A stretch of DNA of 64,000 nucleotides, taken from contig NZ_KQ130452.1 in assembly GCF_001046635.1 (NCBI RefSeq), positions 484,668-548,667 on the forward strand, in the 5' to 3' direction. Of this stretch, positions 1 through 14,180 are shown one piece after another (position 1 is the stretch's first letter; each line of letters starts with the position of its first letter). The position numbers and the translations under genes are program-made. Source of the stretch: Novosphingobium barchaimii LL02 (GTDB lineage Bacteria > Pseudomonadota > Alphaproteobacteria > Sphingomonadales > Sphingomonadaceae). The notes under the pieces were generated by a model. That model did not search any database, was not told where the DNA came from, and was given only the letters and a program-made list of their open reading frames with translations.

Positions 1-1
1 C

Positions 2-526
2 GGCGCGGTGTGGCACCAGCTTGGCATCTCTATGGTGCGCACGACCATGTCGTTCACTGCCGGCGTGCTGCTGGCGCGCTTCCCGATCCCGGAATTCCGC
101 CCCGCCGGGTGGATGGGCCTCGCCTGTCTCGCTGCGATCGCGGCGATGCTGATGCTCGATATCGGCGCGGTTCCCGATGCGTATTACGACCTTGCCTGCA
201 GCATCGTCGTCTCGCCGCTGCTGGTCTGGCTCGGCGCGCGCTGTGAGCCGCCCCGCGTCTTGGCGCCGATTGCCTGGTTTTTGGGTGAGGTGTCCTACGC
301 GGTTTACGCGGTCCACTGGGCGCTGATGGAGCCGCTGCGCTACTTCAAGGATGATCTTGGCTACGACCCGGTGCTGATGGGGGTGGTCTACCTTGCGTGC
401 TGCGTGGCGCTGGGCTGGGCTGGGGTGCGCTGGGTCGATGCGCCGATGCGCCGGAAGATCGGCGCCATGCTGCGCGAAAGAGCGAGCCGCGCTCCGTCGC
501 TGAAGGGGAGCGCCGCGACGAACTAA
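2..526 (+). CDS. Acyltransferase 3 family protein, C-terminal part
   Basis: The frame is open from the window edge, so the gene is cut at its 5' end. The visible 174 residues contain several hydrophobic segments and the stretch LGEVSYAVYAVHWALMEPLRY, which fits the last helices of the OafA/YrhL-type membrane acyltransferase 3 family (inner-membrane O-acylation of sugars or lipids). The family is usually about 350 residues, so roughly half is missing. The catalytic N-terminal His/Arg region is outside the window, so the substrate cannot be judged. It ends in a short basic, presumably cytoplasmic tail. Confidence 0.7.
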   Translation, partial: GAVWHQLGISMVRTTMSFTAGVLLARFPIPEFRPAGWMGLACLAAIAAMLMLDIGAVPDAYYDLACSIVVSPLLVWLGARCEPPRVLAPIAWFLGEVSYAVYAVHWALMEPLRYFKDDLGYDPVLMGVVYLACCVALGWAGVRWVDAPMRRKIGAMLRERASRAPSLKGSAATN

Positions 527-614
527 ACCCCCATAAACCCGTGCCGCAGTTGCGAAATAAGGGGTCGCAGCGTAGGCTAGAATTCAAGTGCTGAACAACT
601 CAGGAGGAGAAACC

Positions 615-1526
615 ATGCAGTATTCAGACATGACCGCCAAGATGGCAGACGGCGACGGATTTATCGCCGCGCTTGACCAAAGTGGCGGTTCCACCCCCAA
701 GGCCCTCGCGGGTTACGGGATTCAGGAAGGTGCATGGTCGAACGAGGAGGAGATGTTCGGCCTGATCCACGAAATGCGCGCGCGGATCATTTCATCGCCC
801 GTCTTCACCGGTGAAAAGGTCATCGGTGCCATCCTGTTCGAGCGGACCATGGACGGTCTCGTCGACGGCGTACCGACCCCGCAGGCGCTGCTCGCCAAGG
901 GCATCGTGCCTTTCATCAAGATCGACAAGGGTCTTGAGGACGAAGTTGATGGCTGTCAGCTTATGAAGCCCAACCCCACCCTCGACGGACTGCTTTCGCG
1001 TTCGAAGAAGCTGGGCGTGTTCGGCACCAAGGAGCGTTCGGTCATCAATTCGGCCAATCAGGCTGGTATCGCTGCCGTGGTCAAGCAGCAGTTCGAGATC
1101 GGCCTGCAGGTGCTCAGCCACGAGATGATGCCGATCATCGAGCCGGAAGTGAACATCAAGAGCGACACGCGCGCCGAGTGCGACACGATCCTGCGCGATG
1201 AAATCCTGAAGAACCTGGACGCGCTGCCCGAGGGCAAGACGGTCATGCTCAAGCTCTCGCTGCCGGTGGTGCCGGGCACGTTCGATGCACTGGTCGAGCA
1301 TCCGAAGGTGCTGCGCGTCGTCGCGCTGTCGGGCGGTTTTGCGCGCCCTGAGGCCTGCGTGGAACTGGCGAAGAACAAGGGCATCATCGCCAGCTTCAGC
1401 CGCGCGCTGCTGTCGGACCTGCGCTCGCAGATGAGCGATGCCGAGTTCAACGCTTCGCTTGGTGAAGCCATCGACGCGATCTACGCTGGCTCGACCCAGA
1501 AGGCGCAAGCGGCAGCCGCCGTCTGA
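615..1526 (+). CDS. fda: Fructose-bisphosphate aldolase, class I
   Basis: This 303-residue protein catalyses reversible cleavage of fructose 1,6-bisphosphate to DHAP and glyceraldehyde 3-phosphate in the cytoplasm (glycolysis/gluconeogenesis). The N-terminus carries the class I signature GFIAALDQSGGSTPKAL (about residues 15-31), followed by KIDKGL, LMKPNPTL and IIEPEVNI, typical of the bacterial Schiff-base class I enzymes. The start at 615 is chosen because a near-perfect Shine-Dalgarno, AGGAGGAG, lies at 602-609; an upstream ATG at 588 has none. A strong hairpin follows the stop, so the gene looks monocistronic at its 3' end. Neighbouring thiE is separated by a convergent lipoprotein gene. 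Confidence 0.93.
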   Translation: MQYSDMTAKMADGDGFIAALDQSGGSTPKALAGYGIQEGAWSNEEEMFGLIHEMRARIISSPVFTGEKVIGAILFERTMDGLVDGVPTPQALLAKGIVPFIKIDKGLEDEVDGCQLMKPNPTLDGLLSRSKKLGVFGTKERSVINSANQAGIAAVVKQQFEIGLQVLSHEMMPIIEPEVNIKSDTRAECDTILRDEILKNLDALPEGKTVMLKLSLPVVPGTFDALVEHPKVLRVVALSGGFARPEACVELAKNKGIIASFSRALLSDLRSQMSDAEFNASLGEAIDAIYAGSTQKAQAAAAV

Positions 1527-1549
1527 TCTTCGCATCGGTCTGAAAAAGG

Positions 1550-1584
1550 AAAAGGCGGTGCCGGGGGGCGCCGCCTTTTCTTTG
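1550..1584 (+). terminator. Intrinsic terminator after the aldolase gene
   Basis: A 13-bp stem (AAAAGGCGGTGCC, GGGG loop, GGCGCCGCCTTTT) is followed by CTTT, with a matching A-rich side on the other strand. It can act in both directions and sits between the convergent aldolase gene and the lipoprotein gene at 1589-2149. Confidence 0.85.
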
Positions 1585-1588
1585 GGTT

Positions 1589-2149
1589 TCAGTAACCGCC
1601 CATGAAGCGGAAACCGAAGCGGTAATCGGAAGATCTGATCGCGCCGTTGTTTGCCGCGCCGGCAACCTTGTCTGGCCTTACCTGGACAAGTTCGAGAGTG
1701 CCGTCGGCTATGGTGATCGGCTTGCCCGAAGTGATTTCGATCTCGCCGCCGCGCCCGCTGTCGATCCGCAGGCGCAAGCGAAGCTGTCCGCCCCAGACGC
1801 AGCGCGCGTTCATCGGGCAACGGCTGTCTTCCAGTACAGCCAGTGGAGTCACGCGTGGGCCGTCCACCGTCACAGTCTGGCCTAACGCGGCGAAGGTCAG
1901 CGGGGCGCCGGTTTCGGCAGCCGGCAATTCGGACGGATAGGGCTGCGAGGGCGGTTGAGCCGGGGTTGGCGCCAAAGGCTGGGCCATCGGCACGGGCTCG
2001 GGATAATTGCCTGGCCCGTTTTGGGGATAGCTTGCCGGCGCTGCCTGCGGATAAGCCTTGGGCATCCGCGAGGGGTCGGCGGCGGGGATCACGGTGCAGC
2101 CTGCAAGCGCGATGGCGAAGATGGCAGCGGTGACCACGGAGCGGAGCAT
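1589..2149 (-). CDS. Putative lipoprotein of unknown function
   Basis: The start at 2149 gives a clear lipoprotein signal, MLRSVVTAAIFAIALAGC, with lipobox LAGC, so the mature protein should be membrane-anchored in the envelope. Residues about 20-85 form a Pro/Gln/Tyr-rich spacer. The C-terminal 100 residues are compact and contain two cysteines in CPMNARCVWGG, which could form a disulfide. The longer open frame upstream has no hydrophobic N-terminus, which supports the internal start. I recognise the type as a sphingomonad envelope lipoprotein but cannot name a function. Confidence 0.75.
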   Translation of the reverse strand: MLRSVVTAAIFAIALAGCTVIPAADPSRMPKAYPQAAPASYPQNGPGNYPEPVPMAQPLAPTPAQPPSQPYPSELPAAETGAPLTFAALGQTVTVDGPRVTPLAVLEDSRCPMNARCVWGGQLRLRLRIDSGRGGEIEITSGKPITIADGTLELVQVRPDKVAGAANNGAIRSSDYRFGFRFMGGY

Positions 2150-2333
2150 GGCCGGAGACTTCAGACGCGCCGGAAAGTTACCTGACCGGGAAGAGCGAAA
2201 GTTCGGGGCGCGGGTTTTCATGGCGGCCAAGCAACACGATCGCGCCTGAATGGTTCCCGAACACGTATGGTTGCCAAGTGGCGATGTCGCCAGAACGCTT
2301 GGCGCAGGGGCTATGCAACGCTAGAGCGCGCAG

Positions 2334-2972
2334 ATGACCGATGAAATCCCTCGCGAACCTACGCAGCTTTACCTGATCTCGCCGCTCGATGTCGGCGGGG
2401 CCTTTGCCGACCGGCTTGCCCGCGCGCTCGATGCCGGGCCGGTCGCGGCATTCCAGTTTCGCGTCAAGAACGTGGACCAGCACGAAGCCGCGCGTCTGGG
2501 CGAGCCGCTGCGCCGCATCTGCGCCGACCGCGACGTGGCCTTCATCGCCAACGATTCGGTCGCTCTTGCCAAGCGACTTGGCGCTGATGGGGTGCATCTA
2601 GGCCAGGACGACGATTCGATCGAGGAAGCTCGGGGCGCACTGGGGCGCGATGCGCAGATCGGTGTGACCTGCCACGACAGCCGCCACTTCGCTATGGAAG
2701 CCGGTGATGCCGGGGCCGACTACGTGGCATTTGGGGCATTCTACCCGACCACGACAAAGGAAACCAAACATACCGCCGGGCTGGATCTGCTGGAATGGTG
2801 GCAGGGCATCTTCGAGATTCCCTGCGTTGCCATCGGTGGGATCACGCCTGAAAACTGCGTGCCGCTGGTGCGTGCGGGCGCGGATTTTCTCGCCGTGTCA
2901 GGCGCGGTGTGGAACGGCGACGAAGAAGCCTCCGTGCGCGCCTTCAACGCAGCGATCGCGGGCGAGTTCTGA
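2334..2972 (+). CDS. thiE: Thiamine phosphate synthase
   Basis: The 212-residue protein joins the hydroxymethylpyrimidine and thiazole moieties to make thiamine phosphate. It shows the TIM-barrel phosphate-binding and pyrophosphate-binding features of the family: ANDSVALAKRLGADGVHLGQDD (about 76-97), GVTCHDS, the FYPTTTKETK loop and the late CVAIGGITPENC strand. Length is normal. Association with a class I aldolase gene is a familiar sphingomonad order. The ATG at 2334 is the first plausible start; upstream sequence has only a weak ribosome site. Confidence 0.9.
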   Translation: MTDEIPREPTQLYLISPLDVGGAFADRLARALDAGPVAAFQFRVKNVDQHEAARLGEPLRRICADRDVAFIANDSVALAKRLGADGVHLGQDDDSIEEARGALGRDAQIGVTCHDSRHFAMEAGDAGADYVAFGAFYPTTTKETKHTAGLDLLEWWQGIFEIPCVAIGGITPENCVPLVRAGADFLAVSGAVWNGDEEASVRAFNAAIAGEF

Positions 2973-3247
2973 GTTTCGGGGCTCGGTGACGGCTCCATCC
3001 CGAACTGGCGCGGCAGATCACCGGTTCCGGATCGCGGTCCTAACCCGGCCTGTATTCACCGAAGACGTCAAGGAGGCGATGACCCTGGGCGGCACTTCGC
3101 GGCCTGCTTTGGCGCAGTGTCCGTCCTTATTGGCGCCGGCAGTCGGAATGGCCTCGCCGCCTTCGAGCTTGGGGGTGCGGGCGGTATCAGTGACCGCCTT
3201 TGCCATGAAGAAGGGATGCCAGGTCCCGTTCTCGGCATCCGCCAGCC
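2973..3247. other. Gap with possible remnant of an F420-related (LLM-type) gene
   Basis: No intact gene is seen. On the minus strand, directly behind the cofC stop, a frame reads ADAENGTWHPFFMAKAV followed by a T.R pattern (about 3165-3235). This resembles the conserved segment of luciferase-like F420-dependent oxidoreductases, where an aromatic/Pro motif precedes an A..T.R...GTAI strand. Homology is then lost and the frame ends at 3018. The resemblance is by eye and weak; it could also be chance coding potential in GC-rich DNA. Confidence 0.3.
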
Positions 3248-3856
3248 TCAGGTCATGAAGCTGAATAAATGCGCAGCGTCAGCGAGATCAAATGGCTCGT
3301 CTATGTCTTTCGCAAGGCCATCAGTGATGATCGTCACTGCGCTGAGGCCCAGCGATTGCGCGGCATTACGGTGTAGTGAGGCGCTGTCGGTGCCGTAATG
3401 GAAGCGGAAGCCTGCCGCCTGGGGCAAGGGGAGCGAAAGCGCATTGGTGCCGCTTCCGTGCCGGTCGGGGGCGATGCCGACGATGCCAAGTGGAAGCTCT
3501 GCGAGCCGCGCGATGTCATTTGGCGTGATGCAGGGCAGGTCGGCGGCGATCACGATCAACCGTGAGGGCGCATCGGGCTTTCGCGCTATAACCGTTAGGG
3601 CGTGACCCAGTGCTGCATTCAGCCCGCCGCCCGGCTCCTCGATCCGATCGAGGTTTACGCTCACGCCCGAACGCTGCGGCCCTACGACTACAGTGCGCTC
3701 GACCGTCTCATTCGCTACCTGCACCACATGTTCGAACATCGCCTCGACCAGCTTGTCGCGTTGCTCCGCGCACAACTGACCTGCGAGGCGAGTCTTGCCT
3801 TGTCCTCGCGCCTTGACAGGGATCAGTGCCCAGATTGTGGCTGACAAGGCGTTCAC
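3248..3856 (-). CDS. cofC: CofC/FbiD-type phospholactate (or 3-phosphoglycerate/PEP) guanylyltransferase
   Basis: The 202-residue enzyme activates a three-carbon phosphoacid with GTP, an early step of coenzyme F420 assembly. Visible motifs are the nucleotide-binding IPVKARGQGKTRLA (12-25), the metal/NTP-binding AADLP (104-108), the substrate loop PDRHGSGTNAL (130-140), FHYGTDS and DIDEPFDL (184-191), all characteristic of CofC. The substrate (phospholactate, PEP or 3-phosphoglycerate) cannot be decided by eye; proteobacterial relatives are known to use 3-phosphoglycerate. Translation starts with GTG overlapping the TGA of the upstream npdG remnant (GTGA), which implies coupling. It is divergent from cofE-cofD. 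Confidence 0.9.
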   Translation of the reverse strand: MNALSATIWALIPVKARGQGKTRLAGQLCAEQRDKLVEAMFEHVVQVANETVERTVVVGPQRSGVSVNLDRIEEPGGGLNAALGHALTVIARKPDAPSRLIVIAADLPCITPNDIARLAELPLGIVGIAPDRHGSGTNALSLPLPQAAGFRFHYGTDSASLHRNAAQSLGLSAVTIITDGLAKDIDEPFDLADAAHLFSFMT

Positions 3857-4110
3857 GAGGTCGCGGATGCCTCGGTAAGACTGATGAAGCGGATGTCGGC
3901 GCTGTCGGCCTCGTTCATATTGATGAGGATAGAGGCCAGTGCCTCAGCCGCCACCACATCGTCCGGTGCGGAGCCATGGTGAAACGCCGTAACCTGCGTC
4001 TTCTTGGCCAAGCGGGAGCCGATAGTAATGTCGTGTCCGGCGGTTACCAGGCTTCCGGGGAGGCCCCTGCCGAGTGCGCCTGCGCCGTCGATCATTGCGA
4101 TTGTTGCCAT
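3853..4110 (-). pseudogene. npdG: Internally deleted NADPH-dependent F420 reductase remnant
   Basis: The frame encodes 85 residues, whereas NpdG/Fno proteins are about 210-230. Residues 1-33, MATIAMIDGAGALGRGL onward to IGSR, are a good N-terminal NADPH-binding Rossmann unit of the family. This is followed at once by VTAFHHGSA, like the mid-protein V.SA.H..PA motif. Then comes AEALASILINMN and ADIRFI, matching the extreme C-terminus (ESLTPLILNI...GIKF in Archaeoglobus Fno, recalled from memory). Two in-frame deletions therefore best explain it. The start at 4110 is supported by GGGGGAG 9 bases upstream. The product is unlikely to bind F420, but its translation may still feed into cofC through the 4-base overlap. 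Confidence 0.72.
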
Positions 4111-4193
4111 GTCGACTATCTCCCCCGCGAATTTTCGAACCCTGTGATTGTCGTTGCCAGCGGCGGACGTAAGGTGCGGTTTAGGAGAACACG

Positions 4194-4979
4194 ATGAATA
4201 CCGCAATTCCAGAACTTACCGTGCGGCCGCTGGCCGGATTACCCATGTTCGCTGCTGGGCAGTCCATTGCGCAAGCTATTTGCAGTGCTCTGTCGGCATC
4301 GGGGGACGGCTTGCGCAGCGGCGATATTTGCGTGATTGCGCAGAAGATCGTCTCCAAGAGCGAAGGGCGCACCGTAAATCTTGCCGCTTTGGCACTGGGC
4401 TCGGCGGCGCGGGATCTAGCCGCGCGTACCGGGCGGGAGGCGGCCATGGCGCAGGCGATCCTGGATGAGAGCGCCGAGATCATGCGTCCGCACCCCGCCG
4501 CGATCATCGCGCGGCACAAAACGGGGCATGTCCTCGCCAATGCCGGGATCGACGCCAGCAATGTCGAAGGAGGAGACGCCGGGACGGTGCTGCTCTGGCC
4601 GGTCGATCCCGATGCCTCGGCGCGGGCGATCCGCTGCGAATTGCAGGAAGCCACCGGCGTGCAGGTGGCCGTCGTCATCGCGGATTCCATGGGCCGGGCA
4701 TGGCGGATCGGCACGGTGGGTACCGCGATCGGCTGCGCGGGGCTTACCGTGCTGGAGGACCGGCGGGGTAGAGCGGTGGACCTCTATGGCCGCGCCTTGC
4801 AGGCGACGGTGATCGCGGTGGCTGACTCGGTTGCCGCAATGGCGGCGCTGGCGATGGGCGAGGGCGATGAAGGCACCCCCGTCGCTCTGGTGCGCGGAGC
4901 GGCGCGGTGGACCTGCGAGGAAGACGGGCCCGGCGCGGCCTCGGGGCTGCGGCCGATCGAACAGGATATGTTTCGATGA
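4194..4979 (+). CDS. cofE: Coenzyme F420-0:L-glutamate ligase
   Basis: The 261-residue enzyme adds gamma-linked glutamates to F420-0 using GTP. It is the single-domain CofE form, lacking the nitroreductase-like C-terminal domain of mycobacterial FbiB. Motifs seen: GDICVIAQKIVSKSEGRTVNL (43-63), AGIDASN (117-123), and ADSMGRAWRIGTVGTAIGCAG (163-183). The last differs from the common DTFGRPWR.G.T[DN]VAIG consensus: Thr to Ser, Phe to Met, and the T[DN] position is altered, so activity or specificity may be shifted. AGGAG at 4183-4187 sets the start. The stop overlaps the cofD start (ATGA). Confidence 0.9.
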   Translation: MNTAIPELTVRPLAGLPMFAAGQSIAQAICSALSASGDGLRSGDICVIAQKIVSKSEGRTVNLAALALGSAARDLAARTGREAAMAQAILDESAEIMRPHPAAIIARHKTGHVLANAGIDASNVEGGDAGTVLLWPVDPDASARAIRCELQEATGVQVAVVIADSMGRAWRIGTVGTAIGCAGLTVLEDRRGRAVDLYGRALQATVIAVADSVAAMAALAMGEGDEGTPVALVRGAARWTCEEDGPGAASGLRPIEQDMFR

Positions 4980-5929
4980 ATAAAAAGCACGTTCTGGCGC
5001 TTTCGGGCGGGGTTGGGGGCGCCAAGCTGGCAGCAGGTCTCGCGGCGGTGCTCAGCCCCGAAGACCTCACGATTGTGGTCAACACCGGCGATGATTTCGA
5101 GCATCTGGGTCTGACGATCTGTCCGGACATCGATTCTGTCACTTATGCGCTTGCGGGTCTCAACGACACCGTGCGCGGCTGGGGCGTACAGGATGAAACG
5201 TGGCAGACGATGGCCATGCTGCGCGGCCTTGGCGAGGCGGACTGGTTCAACCTTGGCGACCGCGACATGGGTATGCACATCGCCCGTTCATGGCGGCTGC
5301 GCGAGGGCGAAACGCTTTCGCAGGTTACGGCCCGTCTGACGCGCAACCTCGGTATCACGCAAGCGGTAGTTCCCATGAGCGACGCGCCTTTGCGCACGCA
5401 GGTCGGCACCGCCGAAGGGTGGCTCGACTTCCAACGCTACTTCGTGGCCGAGCAGTGCCGACCGGTCGCCACAGGGGTGCGTTTCGTCGGCGCGCCGGGG
5501 GCGGCGCCGTCTCCCGCCTTTGCAGAAGCGCTGGCGCGCGAAGACCTTGGCGCGATCATTATTTGCCCCTCGAATCCGTACCTCAGCGTCGATCCGATCC
5601 TTAGCGTGGACGGAGTGCGAGTGGCTTTGGCGCAGCGGCGGGTGCCGCTGGTCGCAGTGTCGCCACTGGTCGGTGGAACCTCGCTCAAGGGGCCGCTTGC
5701 CAAGCTGCTGGGAGAGCTTGGCAAGCCGGTCAGCAATGCTTCAATCGCCGATCACTACGGTGATCTTCTCGACCATCTGGTGATCGATGCGGGCGACGGC
5801 GCCGATGAGGGAGGCTTGCGAGCGCGGGGCCTTTGCGTCACCGTGACGCCAACAATCATGCGCGGGGCCGAGGATCGGGAGCGGCTTGCGCGCGTAGCAC
5901 TGACCGCAGCCCGTATAAAAACAGGATAG
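4976..5929 (+). CDS. cofD: 2-phospho-L-lactate (or related) transferase CofD
   Basis: The 317-residue enzyme transfers the GDP-activated phosphoacid to Fo, forming F420-0 or dehydro-F420-0. The N-terminus has SGGVGGAKLAAGL (10-22) and NTGDDFEHLGLTICPDIDSV (36-55), the hallmark CofD motifs. IICPSNPYLSVDPIL and SPLVGGTSLKGP follow in the expected order, and length is normal. ATG at 4976 overlaps the cofE stop by four bases, so cofE and cofD are one translationally coupled unit. No Fo synthase (fbiC or cofG/cofH) lies in this window, so the chromophore must be made elsewhere or imported. Confidence 0.92.
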   Translation: MNKKHVLALSGGVGGAKLAAGLAAVLSPEDLTIVVNTGDDFEHLGLTICPDIDSVTYALAGLNDTVRGWGVQDETWQTMAMLRGLGEADWFNLGDRDMGMHIARSWRLREGETLSQVTARLTRNLGITQAVVPMSDAPLRTQVGTAEGWLDFQRYFVAEQCRPVATGVRFVGAPGAAPSPAFAEALAREDLGAIIICPSNPYLSVDPILSVDGVRVALAQRRVPLVAVSPLVGGTSLKGPLAKLLGELGKPVSNASIADHYGDLLDHLVIDAGDGADEGGLRARGLCVTVTPTIMRGAEDRERLARVALTAARIKTG

Positions 5930-6214
5930 CCATCCCACGGCTTGAGGCGCCCTACACCGAGGAGGAGGTGCTGATATTGCGCCCGCGTGGGAATGCCGCT
6001 TGTCGAGCGGCCGACGGTCTACCCGCGCTTCATCGCCCAAGACGGCTGGCTGCCCCCTCCGCGATTCGCCGCGCCGTGCTGCGGGGGGGGGGGGCTTTTC
6101 GCATGGCCAATTGGCGGAAATGCGCAGCAAAGCGTGGGCAGCAACCTGTGGCAGAGGACAACGCTTTGCAAAGATGTGGTTGCAGAAGATGGGCTTATTT
6201 TCGGGTATATCCCG
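5930..6214. other. Intergenic gap with 12-G tract
   Basis: No gene is recognised. A short plus frame beginning IPRLEAPYTEEEVLILRPRG (about 5930-5985) has good local coding texture but no family I can name and no follow-through. An uninterrupted run of 12 G lies at 6083-6094. The gap separates cofD from the convergent VOC gene and lacks an obvious terminator. Confidence 0.5.
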
Positions 6215-6691
6215 TCACATCGCACGGATATTCTGCCACATCGGTTCGGGCATCCAGGTATATTCGATGTAGTGCCCGAACACCTTGCGGGCATCGAGGT
6301 ACAGGAACTTCAGCCCGCCCTCCGGCTCTCGGGTAACGTCGCGCTCCATCGCTATGGGGAAATCCTGGGCATCGACGCGGGAGCGGAATTCCTCCCAGTC
6401 GGGGACGCGGAAGCAGATGTGATGGAAGCGCAAGGGGCCGCCGTTGGAGAGGCAGTTGGCGTAGATGCCCACTTCGTCGATCTCGTTTTCGATCAGTTCG
6501 TACTGCAGTTCGCCGATCCAGATGAAGCAGATCCGGCCCTTCTGCCGCTTCGGGCCGGAAGCAGTCAGCACCGTCTGGTCGACGGGGATGATCACCGGCT
6601 CCTTCGTCATGCCGCGGCCCCGCAGCAGGTCTATCCCCGCCTCGATATTGTCGCAAATGTAGGCGTTCTGGTAATGGATGCCTTCGAGCAT
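6215..6691 (-). CDS. VOC (glyoxalase/dioxygenase fold) family protein
   Basis: The 158-residue protein has the paired beta-alpha-beta-beta-beta pattern of the vicinal oxygen chelate fold. HHICFRVPDWEEF (about 94-106) supplies the typical paired His at the start of the second module, and an acidic residue follows in GHYIEYTWM (about 139-147). It resembles sphingomonad proteins annotated as Glyoxalase_4, often near aromatic, steroid or terpenoid catabolism genes. The ATG directly abuts the stop of the sulfotransferase, so the two are co-transcribed. The reaction cannot be inferred. Confidence 0.8.
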   Translation of the reverse strand: MLEGIHYQNAYICDNIEAGIDLLRGRGMTKEPVIIPVDQTVLTASGPKRQKGRICFIWIGELQYELIENEIDEVGIYANCLSNGGPLRFHHICFRVPDWEEFRSRVDAQDFPIAMERDVTREPEGGLKFLYLDARKVFGHYIEYTWMPEPMWQNIRAM

Positions 6692-7870
6692 TCAGCCCTC
6701 CCGCGCGATGTCGTAGCGGGAGAGGTAGCGCTCGAACATCGGTTCCAGCTCCGCCTTGGTCAGGCCGTACTGGGCCAGCTTGTATTCGTGGCGGCCGAAC
6801 TTGTCCTGCGGATTGTCGTCCACCCACTTCTGCACCCCGGCTTCGGCGCCTGCGGTCCATTCGTCGCCCAGCCGGGCATAGACCTTCTTCGTCGCGCCTA
6901 CCGGGTCTGCCACGAGATCGGAGTAGTGGACGTCGATGATCTTGTCCTCGCCGAACTTGTCGCGGAAATCCATGATGCGGTTGGCGTGTTCGGCTGCCTG
7001 CCAGGGGTAGTCCGCCTTGAGCCATTCGGCGTCGATGCGGCCCATGTGCGCCTGATGGCTCAGCGAGATGATCGAGCACAGCGAGCCGGTGGCGGTGAAG
7101 GGATCGCGGTGGGTCCAGATCACACGGGCGTCGGGATAGACCTTGAAGATGGTCTCAAGCCACAGCGCATGGCTGGGTTTCTTGACGTTCCAGACGCCGC
7201 CGGTGTGGTGTTGCAACACCTGCAGGAATTTCTTGTGGTAGTCATAGGCGCTGGTCATGTCGCACGAGAAGAGGAAGTCCTTGTAGGCGGGCAGCTTGCC
7301 CTTGGACTCGATCATCAGCGTCTTGAAATCGTGGGCCATGAAGAACACGCATTCGTTGGGATAGACGGCCGAGCCGCGATAATACTTGGCCATCCCGGGA
7401 TTGGCTTCCAGCGCGGCCTTCTCCTGCGCCAGGCGGTCCACTGCGCGCGGATCGGTGGTAAGCAGCGCGTCGGAGGCGACCGGCGGCACGGGATCGTCGA
7501 TCTCCCACGTCAGCGGCGAGCGGCGCGCAGGGTCGGCGGCCAGCAGGTTCGACATCAGCGTGGTGCCTGTGCGCGGCACGCCCATGACGAAGACGGGCCG
7601 CTCAACCGGGCGGTTCAGCACTTCGGGATTGTCGCGAAGGTACTGCGATACCTTCAGGCGGCCGCGCAGGTAGTGGAGCGTGTCGTTTCGCGCGCGGGCG
7701 ATGCCGCCTTCGCTCATCCAGCCTTTGGCGATGCCTTCGTTGAAAGAGGCGGTGAAGGCGTCCAGCCCCTCGCGATAGGTATCGCTGTCGAAGGCGTCGA
7801 TGCCGGTTTCGGCCATCGCCTGTTCGATGAGCGCATCGGCCACGAGTTGCTCGGTTACGGTGCTTGCCAT
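6692..7870 (-). CDS. Sulfotransferase family protein
   Basis: The 392-residue protein carries the PAPS 5'-phosphosulfate-binding loop MGVPRTGTTL (96-105) and the 3'-phosphate-binding region YPDARVIWTHRDPFTATGS (about 257-275). This places it in the bacterial Sulfotransfer_3-like family that transfers sulfo groups to small hydroxylated acceptors. The start at 7870 is chosen because GGAAGAGGACAACC precedes it; the open frame continues upstream without an RBS. It is first gene of a two-gene unit with the VOC protein. Many proteobacterial relatives lie in catabolic clusters and are untested, so true PAPS use is inference. Confidence 0.85.
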   Translation of the reverse strand: MASTVTEQLVADALIEQAMAETGIDAFDSDTYREGLDAFTASFNEGIAKGWMSEGGIARARNDTLHYLRGRLKVSQYLRDNPEVLNRPVERPVFVMGVPRTGTTLMSNLLAADPARRSPLTWEIDDPVPPVASDALLTTDPRAVDRLAQEKAALEANPGMAKYYRGSAVYPNECVFFMAHDFKTLMIESKGKLPAYKDFLFSCDMTSAYDYHKKFLQVLQHHTGGVWNVKKPSHALWLETIFKVYPDARVIWTHRDPFTATGSLCSIISLSHQAHMGRIDAEWLKADYPWQAAEHANRIMDFRDKFGEDKIIDVHYSDLVADPVGATKKVYARLGDEWTAGAEAGVQKWVDDNPQDKFGRHEYKLAQYGLTKAELEPMFERYLSRYDIAREG

Positions 7871-8009
7871 GTGGTTGTCCTCTTCCCGGCGCGGCCGCTT
7901 GGGCAGCCGTTCATGGGCCAAGGATAGCGCGCCGGAGCCAAGGCTTGGCAATGCACATGGCCCGCCAGATCGGGACGTTATGTAGAGTTCGGGTCAAGAC
8001 CCGACGCCA

Positions 8010-8882
8010 TCACGCCAGCACCCGCCCTTGCCGCTGGCGAAAGCTGCTGGGGCTGGCCCCTACCGAGCGGCGAAACGCGAAAGTGAAGCTGGAGGGTGAG
8101 GCGAAGCCCATCGAAAAGGCGATGGTTTTCACGCTTTCGCCTTGCATCAGCAGGCGCTTGGCGGCTTCCATGCGGCGCTGTTCGACATAGTCGCCGATCG
8201 AGCAGGCGCGGCTGACCCTGAAACCCCGCGTCAACTGGCGGACGGACAGCGCGCAGAGCGCCGCCAGTTCCTCCAGCCCCGGCGCGCTGACATCGTCGGC
8301 AAGGCGCTCGTCGATCAGCCGCAGGCGCCAGCCGGAAAGGCCGCCCGTCACCGGTCGCTCCGCCACTTCGATGCAGTGACGGCCAAGTTCGATGGCCAGT
8401 TCGCACCCCAGGAATCCCAGCATCCTGTGTGCCGCAAGGCCGGGGTGGCGCACTTCGGCGGTGATGCGAAACAGCAGCGCCCGCATTTGCGCGCTGGAGA
8501 TATCGAGCGCGGCGGCAAGGTGCGGATCGTCCCAGGTCAGTTCGCGCCCGACCAGTTCGTGAACCAGTCCGGCACCAATGGTGCAGATCAGCGAGGCCTG
8601 CCGTCCGCTGCCGCCCTTGACGAACAGTTCCTCACCAGGGGGCAGCACGAAGATGTCGCCCAGCCGTTCCAGCCGGTGCGGGCCCCAGCGGCGGCGATAG
8701 CCTCCGCGCGATTGGAGCGGGCGGGGGGTGAGGCACATGTTGACGTGGTAGCCCTTGCCCACGGCATGGCGGCTGTCGGTCGGTTCGGGGATGTCGAAGC
8801 GCACGATCTCGGCGCGCACGCCCTCCGTTTCGAGATGCGCGTCGATACACATCGTCGGGCGCACAGCCTCTGTTGCGATCAT
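8010..8882 (-). CDS. AraC family transcriptional regulator
   Basis: The 290-residue protein has a C-terminal AraC/XylS DNA-binding domain (about 190-285), with two helix-turn-helix units and the signature SVKTIAFSMGFASPSSFTFAFRRSVGASPSSFR. The N-terminal 170 residues are an unassigned effector or dimerisation region containing a YRRRWGPHRLERLGDIFVLPPGE segment, similar to AraC proteins that sense hydrophobic or aromatic ligands. It is divergent from the SDR gene at 9048, with 165 bases between, and is the obvious local regulator of the flanking catabolic genes (inference). Confidence 0.88.
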   Translation of the reverse strand: MIATEAVRPTMCIDAHLETEGVRAEIVRFDIPEPTDSRHAVGKGYHVNMCLTPRPLQSRGGYRRRWGPHRLERLGDIFVLPPGEELFVKGGSGRQASLICTIGAGLVHELVGRELTWDDPHLAAALDISSAQMRALLFRITAEVRHPGLAAHRMLGFLGCELAIELGRHCIEVAERPVTGGLSGWRLRLIDERLADDVSAPGLEELAALCALSVRQLTRGFRVSRACSIGDYVEQRRMEAAKRLLMQGESVKTIAFSMGFASPSSFTFAFRRSVGASPSSFRQRQGRVLA

Positions 8883-9047
8883 GCCTCCAGCCTCCCTCGG
8901 CGCGCGCCCGGTGAATGTGTCCCGGACGCCATCTTAGGGCCGGAACTCTATGCCCCCCGCGCTTGCCGGACAAGCTGCCGACGCGGAACATCGCGGCCAC
9001 GAAAGCCCGGCGACAAAGCCGCGCGACTGGGATCGAGGGATAATTTG

Positions 9048-9839
9048 ATGGCGACAGGCCTTTTCGACTGCACGGGCAAAGTGACGGTAGTGACCGGAGG
9101 CAATGGCGGCATCGGCTTCGGGTTTGCCATGGGCGTCGCCAAAATGGGCGGCGACGTGGCGATCTGGGCTCGCAACGCCGAGAAAAGCGCGAATGCGAAG
9201 GCGGAGCTTGAAGCTGCGGGCGCGGGGCGGGTGATCGCCTATCAGGTGGACGTTTCCGAGGAAGCGAACATCGTGGCGGGCTTCGTTCAGGTCATCGCGG
9301 ATTTTGGCCGGGTAGACTGCGTTTTCGCCAATTCGGGGGCGTCTCCGCGCTACAACTCGGTTTTCGATATGCCGACGGAGCATTGGTACGAATTTCAGAA
9401 GACGGCGCTGCACGGCGCGTTCTTCACCCTGCGCGAAGGCGCTCGGCTGATGAAGGAGCGCGTGGAAGCGGGCGACCAAACCGGCGGCTCGCTTGTCGCC
9501 TGCGGTTCGCTCTCGCTGTTCCAGGGACTGCCGGGGAAGATGGAGTATGCCTCGTCCAAGGCGGCGGTGGCGGCGGCGATCCGCTGTTTGGCGGTCGAAC
9601 TCGCGCCGCTGGGCATCCGCGCGAACGTGGTCGCCCCGGGGCTGGTCATGACGCCGATGATGGGCCAGGGGCCCCGCGCCGATGCCGTGGCCCAGCACTT
9701 CGCGCCGACGATCCCGATGAAGCGCACCGGCCGCCCGGCCGATTTCGAGGGCATCGGTGCCTACCTGTGCTCGGACGCCAGCAGTTTCATGACGGGCGAA
9801 ACGATTGCGATCGACGGTGGCTACATGGTGCGGCCGTAA
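9048..9839 (+). CDS. SDR family oxidoreductase
   Basis: The 263-residue classical short-chain dehydrogenase has a cofactor loop TGGNGGIG (16-23), NSGAS in place of the usual NNAG (95-99), and the catalytic YASSK (Y167, K171). The C-terminal TGETIAIDGGYMV is typical. The start is set at ATG 9048 because the fold begins immediately after it; no longer start fits. It heads a rightward series with the zinc-type dehydrogenase and the metallo-beta-lactamase-fold gene. The substrate is probably a secondary alcohol or ketone in the cluster pathway (inference). Confidence 0.9.
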   Translation: MATGLFDCTGKVTVVTGGNGGIGFGFAMGVAKMGGDVAIWARNAEKSANAKAELEAAGAGRVIAYQVDVSEEANIVAGFVQVIADFGRVDCVFANSGASPRYNSVFDMPTEHWYEFQKTALHGAFFTLREGARLMKERVEAGDQTGGSLVACGSLSLFQGLPGKMEYASSKAAVAAAIRCLAVELAPLGIRANVVAPGLVMTPMMGQGPRADAVAQHFAPTIPMKRTGRPADFEGIGAYLCSDASSFMTGETIAIDGGYMVRP

Positions 9840-9876
9840 TCGCCCCGATTGACCAGAACGTGAGAGGAGAGAAGCG

Positions 9877-10890
9877 ATGAAGCGGCTGAACATTCACGGT
9901 GTCGGCGACGTCCGCCTCGATACATATGAACGGCCCGAGGCAGGTCCCAACGACGTGGTCGTGCGCATGAAGTCGGTCGGCATCTGCGGCAGCGACCTGT
10001 CCTATATCAAGATGGGCGGAATGCCCGCCGAGCCGGGCGGGCAGACCGCGCTGGGCCATGAAGGCGCGGGCGAAGTGCTTCAGGTCGGCTCTGGCGTCAG
10101 CGGCATTGCCGTGGGCGATGCGGTGATCGTCAATCCGATGATGACGCCCAGCAACATCGGCTCGGGCGGGCCGGAAGGCGCCTTTACCGAGGAACTGCTG
10201 GTGCGCGAGGCGCAGCTTGGCACATCAATCCTGCCGATCCCGGAAGGCGTCGATTTCGACGTAGCGGCGATGTGCGAGCCGCTGGCCGTCGCCATGCACG
10301 GCGTCAACCGCGCAGAAGTAAAGCCGGGCGACAAGGTGGTGGTGTTCGGCTGCGGTCCGATCGGCCTTGGCATGTTGCTTTGGCTGAAGGACCGCGGCGT
10401 GGACGAGGTGGTGGCGCTGGACCTCTCGGAGGAGCGGCTGGAACGTGCCCGCGCCATCGGCGTCCAGGCCGCGCTGGACCCGAGCAAGGTGGACCTGCGC
10501 GCGGAACTGGCGAGGCTGCACGGGGAAGTGCCCAGCTTCAACCGCGTGGGCGTGGGCACCGACGCCTTCATCGATGCGGCAGGCGCGCCGCACATCCTGG
10601 CGCAGGTCATCATGATGGCCAAGTTCCACGCCCGGCTGGTGATAACGGCGGCCTACATGAAGCCCATCGAATTTCCGGTCGGCCGCATGCTGACCAGCGA
10701 GATGACCATCACCACGGCGGTCGGCTATCCCACCGAAATGCCCGAGGTGATCGCTGCGATGCCGCGCCTCAAGGACCAGATCGCGGCCATGATAAGCCAC
10801 AAGCTGCCATTCGGCGAAGTGCTGCACGGGCTGGAAATCGCCGCCACGCCGCAGTCGGCGAAAGTCATGATACAGTTCGAGGAAGCCTGA
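9877..10890 (+). CDS. Zinc-type alcohol dehydrogenase (MDR superfamily)
   Basis: The 337-residue medium-chain dehydrogenase has catalytic zinc ligands Cys37 (GICGSD) and His61-Glu62 (GHEGAGEV) and the Rossmann loop FGCGPIGLG (about 154-162). The four-cysteine structural zinc loop is absent, as in several sorbitol/threonine-dehydrogenase-like subgroups. GAGAGG just upstream of ATG 9877 is a good ribosome site. It lies 37 bases after the SDR and 1 base before the next gene, so all three are co-transcribed. It probably oxidises a diol or hydroxy intermediate with NAD(P)+. Confidence 0.9.
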   Translation: MKRLNIHGVGDVRLDTYERPEAGPNDVVVRMKSVGICGSDLSYIKMGGMPAEPGGQTALGHEGAGEVLQVGSGVSGIAVGDAVIVNPMMTPSNIGSGGPEGAFTEELLVREAQLGTSILPIPEGVDFDVAAMCEPLAVAMHGVNRAEVKPGDKVVVFGCGPIGLGMLLWLKDRGVDEVVALDLSEERLERARAIGVQAALDPSKVDLRAELARLHGEVPSFNRVGVGTDAFIDAAGAPHILAQVIMMAKFHARLVITAAYMKPIEFPVGRMLTSEMTITTAVGYPTEMPEVIAAMPRLKDQIAAMISHKLPFGEVLHGLEIAATPQSAKVMIQFEEA

Positions 10891-10891
10891 C

Positions 10892-12139
10892 ATGAACGCA
10901 ACCAGGGAATCCGCCCCGAAGCTGGCCGACCTCGTCCGTTCGGGAGACGAGCAGGCGGAGGCTATTGCCGTCACCGATTTCATCTTCCAGGCCAACGACA
11001 TCTCCAACGCCTATCTCGTCACCACCGGCGAGGGCGACGTGATGATCAACACCGGCTTCATGGATAACGCCGAGCGTACACGGCGACTGCTGGCCCCGCA
11101 CCGCAAGGGGCCGCTGGCCTTCGTGATAATCACGCAAAGCCACGCCGATCATTACGGCGGCCTGCCCGAATTCGTGGAAGAGGGCACGCAGGTCATCGGC
11201 GGTCCCGGCTTCAACGAAGCGCTGGCGGACATGAACGGGCTGCAATCGTTCTTCGGGCCCAGGAGCAGGAAGCTCTGGGGTTCCACCCTGAAGCGCGGCT
11301 CCGCGCCCAAGGCGCCGCCGCATGTCGAGCCGGATATCCTCGTCGAGCGCCGCCTGACGGTGGAGGTGGGGGATCGTACCTTCGAGCTGATCTCCACCCC
11401 TGAAGGCGAAACGGTCGATGCGCTTACCGTGTGGATGCCGAAGGAGAAAATCGCCTTTACCGGCAATGTCTTCGGGCCGGTGTGGCTTTCGATGCCGTTT
11501 CTCAACACCCTGCGCGGCGACAAGCCGCGACTGGTGCGCAATTACCTGAAGTCGCTGGAGATGGTGCGTGCGCTCGGAGCCGAGATCGTCGTTACCGGCC
11601 ACGGCGAGGCGATCCGGGGCAAGGAGCGCATCCGCGCCGACCTCGACAAGCTGCACGCCGCCGTCAGCCATGTGCGCGACTTTACGCTGGAAGGCATGAA
11701 GGCGGGCAAGGACGTGCACACCCTGATGCGCGAATTCGCGTGGCCGGAAGGGCTGCAGATCGGCGAATTCCACGGCAAGGGCAGCTGGGCGGTCAAGTCC
11801 ATCTGGCGCGAATATGCGGGCTGGCTGCACTACGAGGACGGCACCACGGCGCTTTACGGCGTGCCGCGCAGCAGCGTCGATGCCGACCTCGCCGAGCTGG
11901 CGGGCGGCGCGGCGAAACTGGCCCAGCGCGCGCAGGCAAAGCTGGACGGCGGCGCGGCGCTGGAGGCGGTTCACCTGACCGACATCGCCCTCAATGCGGA
12001 GCCGGACAACGCGGAGGCGCTCAAGGTCCGCAAGGCCGCGCATGAAGCGCTGCTTGCGGCCAGCGGGGGCAAGAACCTCTCGGAGACGATGTGGCTGCGT
12101 TCCGAGATCGCCGCCATGGAGGCAAAGCTGGCGGAATGA
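10892..12139 (+). CDS. Metallo-beta-lactamase-fold protein, alkyl-sulfatase-like
   Basis: The 415-residue protein has an N-terminal MBL domain and a C-terminal region of about 150 residues resembling the alkyl-sulfatase dimerisation/TPR-like domain. The metal motif reads TQSHADHYGG (81-90): His84, Asp86 and His87 are present but the first canonical His (THxHxDH) is Gln82. A later TGHGEAI supplies another His. It starts 1 base after the dehydrogenase stop, so translation is coupled. A hydrolase acting on a sulfate or other ester would complement the nearby sulfotransferase, but the altered ligand makes this uncertain. Confidence 0.8.
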   Translation: MNATRESAPKLADLVRSGDEQAEAIAVTDFIFQANDISNAYLVTTGEGDVMINTGFMDNAERTRRLLAPHRKGPLAFVIITQSHADHYGGLPEFVEEGTQVIGGPGFNEALADMNGLQSFFGPRSRKLWGSTLKRGSAPKAPPHVEPDILVERRLTVEVGDRTFELISTPEGETVDALTVWMPKEKIAFTGNVFGPVWLSMPFLNTLRGDKPRLVRNYLKSLEMVRALGAEIVVTGHGEAIRGKERIRADLDKLHAAVSHVRDFTLEGMKAGKDVHTLMREFAWPEGLQIGEFHGKGSWAVKSIWREYAGWLHYEDGTTALYGVPRSSVDADLAELAGGAAKLAQRAQAKLDGGAALEAVHLTDIALNAEPDNAEALKVRKAAHEALLAASGGKNLSETMWLRSEIAAMEAKLAE

Positions 12140-12257
12140 ATGTGCCCCGCCGCGGACATCGTCTGGGGGATGGTTCGGCAAACAACCCGCTGAGGCTCCC
12201 ATCGGGTTGTGAGTGCCATCTATAGTCGGTGCAACGATACGAATGGGAGCGGATTGA

Positions 12258-13061
12258 ATGAGCACGCCCGATATTCTGGACCTTGGCGGGCAGGTCGCCG
12301 TCGTCACCGGCGCGGGACAGAACGCGGGGCGCGGTATCGCGCTCGAACTGGCGCGGCACAATGCCGGGGGCATTGCCGTCAACGACTTCGTGCCCGAGCG
12401 GGCCGAGGCGGTGGCCGAGGAAATCCGGGCGACTGGCGTTCCCGCGCTGGCGGTGCCGTTCGACGTGGGCGATCTCGATGCGATCAAGGCGGCGAACGCG
12501 GCGATCACGGACAAGCTGGGGGCCGCGACGATCCTGGTGAACAACGCGGGCATGGCCGGGCCGGGCGGTTCGCTGCGTCGGGCGCTGAACTTCTGGGAAG
12601 AAGATCCGGCCGCCTGGGACCGTTACCTGCGCACCAATCTATACGGCGTCTACAATGCCTGCTTCGCCTTGATCCCGAACATGGTCGCGGCCAGGCGCGG
12701 GCGGATCGTCACCATCGTGTCGGATTCCGGCCGCGTGGGCGAGCCGAAGCTGGCGGTCTACGCCTCGGCCAAGGCGGGCGCGCAGGGCTTTGTGCGCTCG
12801 ATCGCCAAGGAATTGGGGCGCTATAATGTAACCTCGAACGCGGTGTCGCTGTCCTCGCTGATGCCTGACATGCCCGAGGAGAAGCTGGCCGAAGTGATGG
12901 CCAGCGATCACGCCAAGGCGCAGTTGGCGCATTATACCATTCGCCGTTACGGCAAGTCCGCCGATGTCGCTGGACTGGTGGCTTTCCTGTGCTCGGACGC
13001 GGCGGGATGGATCACGGGGCAGACCTATCCGCTCAACGGCGGCTATGCGCCTTCGATGTAA
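12258..13061 (+). CDS. SDR family oxidoreductase
   Basis: The 267-residue classical SDR contains TGAGQNAGRG (17-26), NNAG (95-98) and YASAK (Y168, K172). VNDF after the second strand (acidic Asp43) favours NAD(H) over NADP(H). The C-terminal TGQTYPLNGGYAPSM is standard. The start at 12258 follows GGGAGCGGATTG. It sits 118 bases after the MBL-fold gene, so it may have its own promoter. Function is presumably one redox step of the same pathway, but the substrate is unknown. Confidence 0.9.
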   Translation: MSTPDILDLGGQVAVVTGAGQNAGRGIALELARHNAGGIAVNDFVPERAEAVAEEIRATGVPALAVPFDVGDLDAIKAANAAITDKLGAATILVNNAGMAGPGGSLRRALNFWEEDPAAWDRYLRTNLYGVYNACFALIPNMVAARRGRIVTIVSDSGRVGEPKLAVYASAKAGAQGFVRSIAKELGRYNVTSNAVSLSSLMPDMPEEKLAEVMASDHAKAQLAHYTIRRYGKSADVAGLVAFLCSDAAGWITGQTYPLNGGYAPSM

Positions 13062-13112
13062 GGATAGCGCTGTTCTGGCACTCGATCCGGCACGGCGCCA
13101 TGATCAGAATAC

Positions 13113-14180
13113 TCAGGCCGTCACTTCGCGCGTCTCGCCGTCCAGCCACTGGCGCACCACGAGATAGCGCCCATGCAGCGCCCCGCGATCCTGAATGCCG
13201 AAGCCGAGCAGGGTGCCTTCGCAGCCTTCGGCGGCGGGGAGCCACTTCACTTGTTCCAGACCGATGCGCACACCTTCGCGCGACAGGTCGGTAGCGCGGG
13301 CGAGCCCCTCGGCGACGAGGCGGCCAAGGTCATGGCCTTTGGCGACGGCAAGTGCCTGCTGGCGCGGTGCGCCAAGCTGAGACATCTGCGCCTGCAGGGT
13401 GGTGTTCGTGTCCGAATGCATGTCGATGTAGAACCAGCCGTCGCAGTCGTGCGCGAACGTACCGTGATACCCGCGCAGGCCAGCGGTATTCATGATGTTC
13501 GGCCCTGGCCAAGCACAGGCCGAGAGCGCCTTTGCCACCGCCGGCGCGGAGACGCCAAGGCCGAGGTAGACCACGCCGTCCGGCGCGCCTTCCAGCAGAG
13601 CGTCGACCAGCGCGGCGGCATCGTCGGCCAGGGGGGACATGCCCTCCTTCGCGACGATCTCTATGCCGAGAATGCGCGCTTCGCTTTCGAGATACTTGAG
13701 GTGCCGCGTGCCGATCGGCGAGATGTCGTAGGCTATCGCGAGACGGCGGCAGCCCAGCATCGCCATGTGCCGCGCGATGACCAGTGATTCGTCTTCATGG
13801 CTGCCGACCTGATGATGGAACATGTAGCGGCCCCGCGCACGCTCGGCCCCGGCCCAGTTGATGGTGGGGATGCGCAACTGTTCGGCCAGCGGCGTAGCCA
13901 CAAGGGCATTGTCGCCGATGGCCGGCCCCACAATCAGGCTGACGCCCGCGTCGGCCAGCTGGCGATAGGCGGTCTCCACCGCCTCCGCCGTGCCCGAGGG
14001 TAGGCCCAGGCCATAGGCGTGGATGAACTCCACTTCGGCGGGGAAGCGCCCCGCATCGCGCAGGACCGCGATTTCGCGCTCCAGCCAGCCGGTGACATCG
14101 CCCGGAATCGGGGTATTATCGTCCAGATCGGAGAAGTCGGCCATATCGTTGAGAACGCCGACTTTTACGCTTTCTGGCAT
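13113..14180 (-). CDS. ABC-type branched-chain-amino-acid-like substrate-binding protein without signal peptide
   Basis: The 355-residue protein has the two-lobed Peripla_BP_6/LivJ-like fold: an N-terminal KVGVLNDMADFSD strand, VSLIVGPAIGDNALVATPLAEQLRIPTINWAG in the first lobe, and ILGIEIVAKEGMSP followed by GAPDGVVYLGLGVSAPAVAKAL in the second. The start at 14180 has a good GGAGG site. Neither this start nor the upstream frame encodes a Sec, Tat or lipoprotein signal, so a cytoplasmic ligand sensor is possible. No ABC permease or ATPase gene lies nearby. It converges on the second SDR gene. Confidence 0.82.
   Translation of the reverse strand: MPESVKVGVLNDMADFSDLDDNTPIPGDVTGWLEREIAVLRDAGRFPAEVEFIHAYGLGLPSGTAEAVETAYRQLADAGVSLIVGPAIGDNALVATPLAEQLRIPTINWAGAERARGRYMFHHQVGSHEDESLVIARHMAMLGCRRLAIAYDISPIGTRHLKYLESEARILGIEIVAKEGMSPLADDAAALVDALLEGAPDGVVYLGLGVSAPAVAKALSACAWPGPNIMNTAGLRGYHGTFAHDCDGWFYIDMHSDTNTTLQAQMSQLGAPRQQALAVAKGHDLGRLVAEGLARATDLSREGVRIGLEQVKWLPAAEGCEGTLLGFGIQDRGALHGRYLVVRQWLDGETREVTA

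Follow-up and report, generated by a model that had tools for sequence, protein, structure and literature searches.

Intact cofC, cofE and cofD beside a fragmentary FO synthase gene in a Novosphingobium F420 locus

Can a bacterium that keeps enzymes for turning FO into coenzyme F420, and only debris of the FO synthase gene beside them, still make the coenzyme, and where would its FO come from? The question is raised by a locus near one end of the window, by which we mean the whole 64 kb stretch of Novosphingobium DNA that was analysed. The locus comprises the following features, in which G069 and G165 denote the genomes of the two nearest relatives.

3049..3223, minus strand: fragment of an LLM-class F420-dependent oxidoreductase, covering roughly residues 204-261 out of 311 and matching the N. 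indicum LLM (tblastn E 7e-16)
3248..3856, minus strand: cofC, guanylyltransferase (TIGR03552 score 126.9, cut-off 105; phmmer to 7p97 E 1.7e-16)
3853..4110, minus strand: stub of NPD (NADPH:F420 reductase), residues 1-48 joined to about 174-214 with the centre deleted (from tblastn pieces)
4111..4193, no strand: intergenic region separating the divergent NPD and cofE, 88% identical to G069, a value equal to that for G069 against G165
4194..4979, plus strand: cofE, stand-alone F420-0:L-glutamate ligase (TIGR01916 score 253.9, cut-off 180.65; phmmer to 2phn E 5e-49)
4976..5929, plus strand: cofD, transferase joining the CofC product to FO (TIGR01819 score 274.5, cut-off 257.45; phmmer to 3c3d E 3e-59)
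5940..6202, plus strand: remains of fbiC (FO synthase) in three pieces, around residues 71-97 (a weak match), 333-361 and 754-772 out of 782

The initial annotation, made from the letters of the DNA, had described intact cofC, cofE and cofD here, and this description holds: the 2.3 kb of their reading frames is unbroken, and all three proteins exceed their cut-offs, which are the NCBIfam equivalog thresholds. The 4-base overlaps that it reported in both divergent units are likewise present, between CofE and CofD at 4976-4979 and between the NPD stub and CofC at 3853-3856, and the cofE promoter is presumed to lie within 4111..4193. It was also right to call the local NPD reductase a remnant: the stub is 384 bp net shorter than its G069 counterpart and lacks a full-length npdG domain (23.1 bits, the cut-off being 149.8), whereas the proteins of G069, G165 and a third relative, G068, score over that cut-off. 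Its statement that FO synthase is missing requires qualification. Neither an intact FbiC nor CofG plus CofH is encoded at the cof locus, and no second FbiC occurs elsewhere within the 64 kb, but fragments of fbiC persist at about 5940-6202, 3' of cofD. Both these and the LLM fragment at 3049-3223 had been overlooked. In tblastn searches with the N. indicum FbiC, pieces 71-97, 333-361 and 754-772 matched with E values of 0.37, 4e-5 and 1.4, respectively; at the DNA level, positions 5978-6083 and 6112-6202 matched G069 with E values of 2e-25 and 3e-10, and the first fragment with E 5e-4. Two stretches of N. indicum FbiC, CTDVCHYC (from 56) and CTHACSFC (from 472), which we take to be its radical-SAM cysteine motifs, both fall outside the fragments left in the window. 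The fbiC remnant also contains a run of 12 G residues at 6083-6094, the sole G or C run of at least nine in the window. The LLM fragment is 80.6% identical in nucleotides to G069, and the N. indicum LLM scores above the TIGR03619 cut-off.

A collection scan with the window CofD as query confirmed 400 loci, and among the best 80 of these, which were kept, the closest named ones belong to Novosphingobium (N. indicum, 83%); the gene neighbours of the cof locus are syntenic with the Novosphingobium loci. A megablast of window positions 1-25000 against PLSDB gave a single match, of 550 bases at efp, and a plasmid origin was accordingly set aside. By CofD the nearest relatives are G069 (95%), G165 (94%) and G068 (89%). 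In G069 and G165, LLM, SDR, cofC and NPD face cofE-cofD-fbiC and all are intact; G068 has an equivalent locus with FbiC split over two contigs. The N. indicum NPD belongs to npdG, and its FbiC reaches 1114 bits with the bifunctional CofGH model, above the cut-off of 1018. Comparison with G069 covered window positions 1-14000, and the alignment extends over roughly the initial 13 kb. Both flanks are collinear, with 90% (1-2999) and 93% (6212-13024) identity, and between them, inside 2999-6212, lie six gaps of net 228, 1482, 384, 944, 1108 and 123 bp, the stretch being 4283 bp shorter overall than in G069. The SDR gene falls in the 1482-bp gap (6252-7103 of the G069 locus L111). Deletions in the window lineage have thus taken the whole SDR gene and the greater part of LLM, NPD and fbiC. 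Past the F420 locus, positions 6215-13061 carry genes for a VOC-like protein, a sulfotransferase, an AraC regulator, an SDR, an ADH-like protein (named by eye), an alkylsulfatase-like metallo-beta-lactamase and a further SDR; much of this run is also present in several other Novosphingobium loci (L001-L005, L008).

The initial annotation had left room for a 3-phosphoglycerate type of F420. A Ser or Thr at position 162 of the Mycetohabitans CofC marks use of 3-phosphoglycerate (PMC8764529). In an alignment with 7p97, in which S162 was located by the S162/S165 spacing, the window CofC has Gly155 at that position, and Gly is found there in all eight aligned kin as well. With Gly in place of the diagnostic Ser/Thr, the 3-phosphoglycerate variant finds no support; judging by Gly155, the enzyme would be of the 2-phospholactate/phosphoenolpyruvate type.

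We compared selection on the intact and the fragmentary genes with codon models (our own script, GY94-type, F3x4) on a fixed five-taxon tree, with the window and G069 as sisters and L113, L114 and L115 as outgroups; other fetched kin were left out. The fragment set consisted of four fragments with 153 codons, 5 having been dropped for gaps, and the third fbiC fragment was used for distances only. Pooled over these 153 codons, the fragments have a dN/dS of 0.31 on the window branch versus 0.032 elsewhere (2dlnL 37), values that are rough because the alignments are short and the fitted window branch (1.43) is twice that of the cof genes (0.72). A value of 1 is rejected (2dlnL 10.6), and the fragments were therefore constrained for part of the branch. 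Within the limits of the models, the LLM fragment (0.34 versus 0.025, 2dlnL 19) and the NPD fragment (0.34 versus 0.028, 2dlnL 17) have evolved under relaxed constraint on the window branch. For the fbiC fragment alone, with only 26 codons, relaxation is not significant (0.159 versus 0.046, 2dlnL 1.7), and its window-branch distance of 0.119 is shorter than those of the LLM or NPD pieces; loss of fbiC may therefore have come later than that of NPD and LLM, although the third fbiC piece has a longer distance, 0.262.

CofE (0.057 versus 0.084) and CofD (0.078 versus 0.072) are under purifying selection on the same branch according to the codon model; pooled, they give 0.069 versus 0.080, and the fragments' value of 0.31 is rejected for them (2dlnL 35). 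For CofC (0.241 versus 0.191) a value of 1 is rejected (2dlnL 18.2), but both 0.31 and 0.40 fit (2dlnL 0.66 and 2.62), and its GC3 of 0.70 is below the 0.76-0.81 of its kin. None of the three genes individually has a window-branch shift of more than 3.84 in 2dlnL, nor does any of eight flanking control genes, the largest value there being 3.22. We read this as probable retention of function for CofD and CofE, and as data compatible also with relaxed constraint for CofC. The five fragments have a window-branch distance of 0.200 substitutions per site (0.164-0.246), plus small indels; this is similar to the four-fold sites of cofC, cofE and cofD (0.181; 0.135-0.234) and above those of the eight flanking genes (0.110; 0.088-0.134).

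How often CofD occurs without FO synthase was assessed in the genus and in a sample of the class. CofD matches, some of them partial, are found in 80 of 195 genus genomes, and FbiC matches (E 1e-20, at most five candidates scored per genome) in the identical 80, partial matches to either protein occurring for instance in G112, G118, G156 and G159; not one of the 80 has CofD without FbiC. In the class sample, CofD is over its cut-off in 58 of 385 genomes and CofH also in 57 of these 58. The sole exception, G398, may be an incomplete assembly, and three other genomes have CofH over the cut-off and no CofD that passes. Given 80/80 and 57/58, CofD is hardly ever found in a genome that lacks an FO synthase. 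FbiC lies within 6 kb of CofD in 74 of the 80 genus genomes; in the other six it is farther away or on another contig, in one (G112) only through contig ends, and in five the two are truly apart.

Some Novosphingobium genomes carry an unlinked FbiC of a divergent kind. In G001, G024, G059, G060 and G185 this divergent FbiC (56-58%) occurs in addition to a local one. Four of the five genomes with the two genes apart (G182, G173, G136, G189) have the divergent FbiC only, together with a CofD that is of the same kind as the window's (at least 60%). The divergent gene stands beside a second NPD in G001, G059, G060, G189 and G052 and beside a CofC-like gene in G001, G059, G060, G173 and G136; none of the 10 fetched stretches around unlinked FbiC genes, 6 to 18 kb each, contains CofD. 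In a tree built by a quick method from the 63 FbiC rows, out of 106 loci, that span more than 650 query residues, the local and the unlinked rows fall into separate starred clades, one holding 20 of the 21 local rows and the other 9 of the 10 unlinked ones. The exceptions are the unlinked L124, on a long branch outside its clade, and the local L015 from Sphingomonas, which groups with two Caulobacteraceae rows. At the CofD loci of G182, G173, G136 and G189, searches for FbiC traces (tblastn, E up to 1) yielded nothing significant, the best match, E 0.020, lying inside the CofD stretch of L126; the window is the sole case with readable fbiC fragments among the five loci examined in this way.

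An unlinked unit of this kind can provide what the window has lost or holds in doubtful form (FbiC, NPD, LLM and perhaps CofC), and in G001, G059 and G060 it lacks CofD and CofE, the two that the window has clearly kept; this correspondence is suggestive, not proof. LLM matches were counted in five kin genomes, and many of these proteins need not use F420. NPD, for its part, probably need not be replaced, because G136 has CofD and FbiC without any npdG match over the cut-off in the genome. G136 (L123-L125) carries two divergent FbiC copies, and neither CofC, NPD nor CofE stands beside its CofD. A second cofE-cofD pair, with CofD at 81%, occurs in G060 (L131, G060:C3:274000-290000), where the fetched 16 kb gave no match to FbiC or CofC; the same genome also has a full F420 locus and an unlinked FbiC-NPD-CofC unit.

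On balance we favour, with modest confidence, the reading that the cell obtains its FO in trans, probably through an unlinked FbiC module, and still makes F420. CofC would activate 2-phospholactate or phosphoenolpyruvate with GTP, CofD would transfer the activated product to FO, and CofE would add glutamates, roles suggested by their families. CofE and CofD seem to have remained under purifying selection of normal strength during the drift of the LLM and NPD fragments, and because they are unrelaxed despite the decay of NPD and LLM (and, less clearly timed, of fbiC) on the same branch, the end product is probably still made and used, the cell most likely still converting FO to F420. Since the local fbiC was deleted while CofE and CofD stayed selected, the FO most likely comes from outside the locus, from an FbiC elsewhere in the genome that, by analogy with other species, is probably of the unlinked kind. 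The proposal in the initial annotation that F420 is still made, and used by enzymes outside the region, thus gains from the codon models, and the case for an fbiC elsewhere draws on other species only. Several points count against this reading: the 64 kb contain no second FbiC; the three nearest kin have a local FbiC only, with no spare copy among all candidates scored; the fragments were constrained for part of the branch; the fbiC fragment taken alone shows no significant relaxation; and CofC, with its lower GC3, is compatible with relaxed constraint.

Some of these points favour a pathway dying in progress, in which the ability to make FO has gone permanently, perhaps of late, and decay has yet to reach the relic genes cofC, cofE and cofD. 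Reduction of LLM, NPD and FbiC to fragments agrees with this, as does the absence of a spare FbiC in the nearest kin; a late loss of fbiC is allowed by its non-significant relaxation, and CofC may be under relaxed constraint. We nevertheless regard it as rather unlikely: the three frames are intact while the fragments have gathered substitutions and indels, and CofE and CofD reject the fragments' dN/dS. Recent loss with neutral cof genes is made less likely for these two by the codon models and is still compatible with CofC. If FO synthesis is gone, the strain might instead take up FO from its neighbours and finish it with CofC, CofD and CofE. The enzymes retained are indeed those for the steps from FO to F420, and the window holds no FbiC, yet such scavenging appears improbable: CofD without FbiC has no precedent among the 80 genus genomes and one candidate, G398, among the 58 of the class sample; F420 or deazaflavin auxotrophy or cross-feeding did not surface in the titles and opening lines of abstracts consulted; and the terms excret-, uptake and supernatant are absent from the review PMC8498797. 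That the three enzymes now make something other than F420 has nothing direct in its favour beyond the local loss of their partner FO synthase, and is very hard to square with three proteins that score as F420 equivalogs and have window-branch dN/dS values like those of their kin. Equally far-fetched is the idea that parts of a normal locus went missing through mis-assembly. The 12-G run within the fbiC remnant might invite it; such an error would not be expected to give the fragments private substitutions, at about 0.2 per site, together with small indels.

A review records the detection of F420 in Alphaproteobacteria, at trace level in two species, and portrays the genes for it as widespread, with a history of horizontal transfer (PMC8498797). 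Rarity in proteobacteria, to which the initial annotation had appealed, is consequently a weak argument, the more so with CofD in 80 of 195 genus and 58 of 385 class-sample genomes. A 2026 description of two Novosphingobium species mentions F420 genes among six compared strains (PMC13318209). Split F420 modules or loss of FbiC in Novosphingobium or Sphingomonadales did not appear in the titles and abstract openings covered, which is not proof of their absence from the literature. The cof family members are ordinary; their arrangement is an unusual variant. The locus seems to have been caught at a stage when decay had overtaken its FO synthase and local F420 enzymes, with at least CofD and CofE still under selection. 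This points to a possible modular organisation of F420 production in Novosphingobium, FO coming from one unlinked unit and being finished by another, and annotation of a single locus could wrongly class such strains as non-producers. Were FO scavenged, this would amount to vitamin-like cross-feeding for a deazaflavin, and if the genome had no FbiC, FO cross-feeding would be directly testable.

Compared with the bacterial F420 pathway (FbiC, CofC/FbiD, CofD/FbiA, CofE), the window shares the last three enzyme families and has no intact FO synthase. It shares the CofC family with the 3PG-F420 pathway of Mycetohabitans (PMC8764529), 7p97 being the best PDB match of its CofC, and differs in the Gly155 described above. 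The Novosphingobium F420 locus (G069, G165 and N. indicum CGMCC 1.6784; CofD 95%, 94% and 83%) has the same gene order, divergent layout and flanks; unlike it, the window has no SDR, and its fbiC, NPD and LLM genes are fragmentary. N. indicum carries extra genes between ThiE and LLM and also after FbiC, and its locus includes a TIM-barrel gene, two MFS genes and a LuxR gene that the window lacks; we do not count these as losses, because G069 likewise has no MFS or LuxR genes and only a fragment of the TIM-barrel gene. A parallel in arrangement comes from the Novosphingobium genomes with FbiC apart (G182, G173, G136, G189, G052), in which, as in the window, no FbiC stands beside CofD. They differ from it in that their FbiC is seen elsewhere in the genome, where in the window strain we infer it, and in that the CofD loci of G182, G173, G136 and G189 are free of significant FbiC traces, whereas the window still carries fragments.
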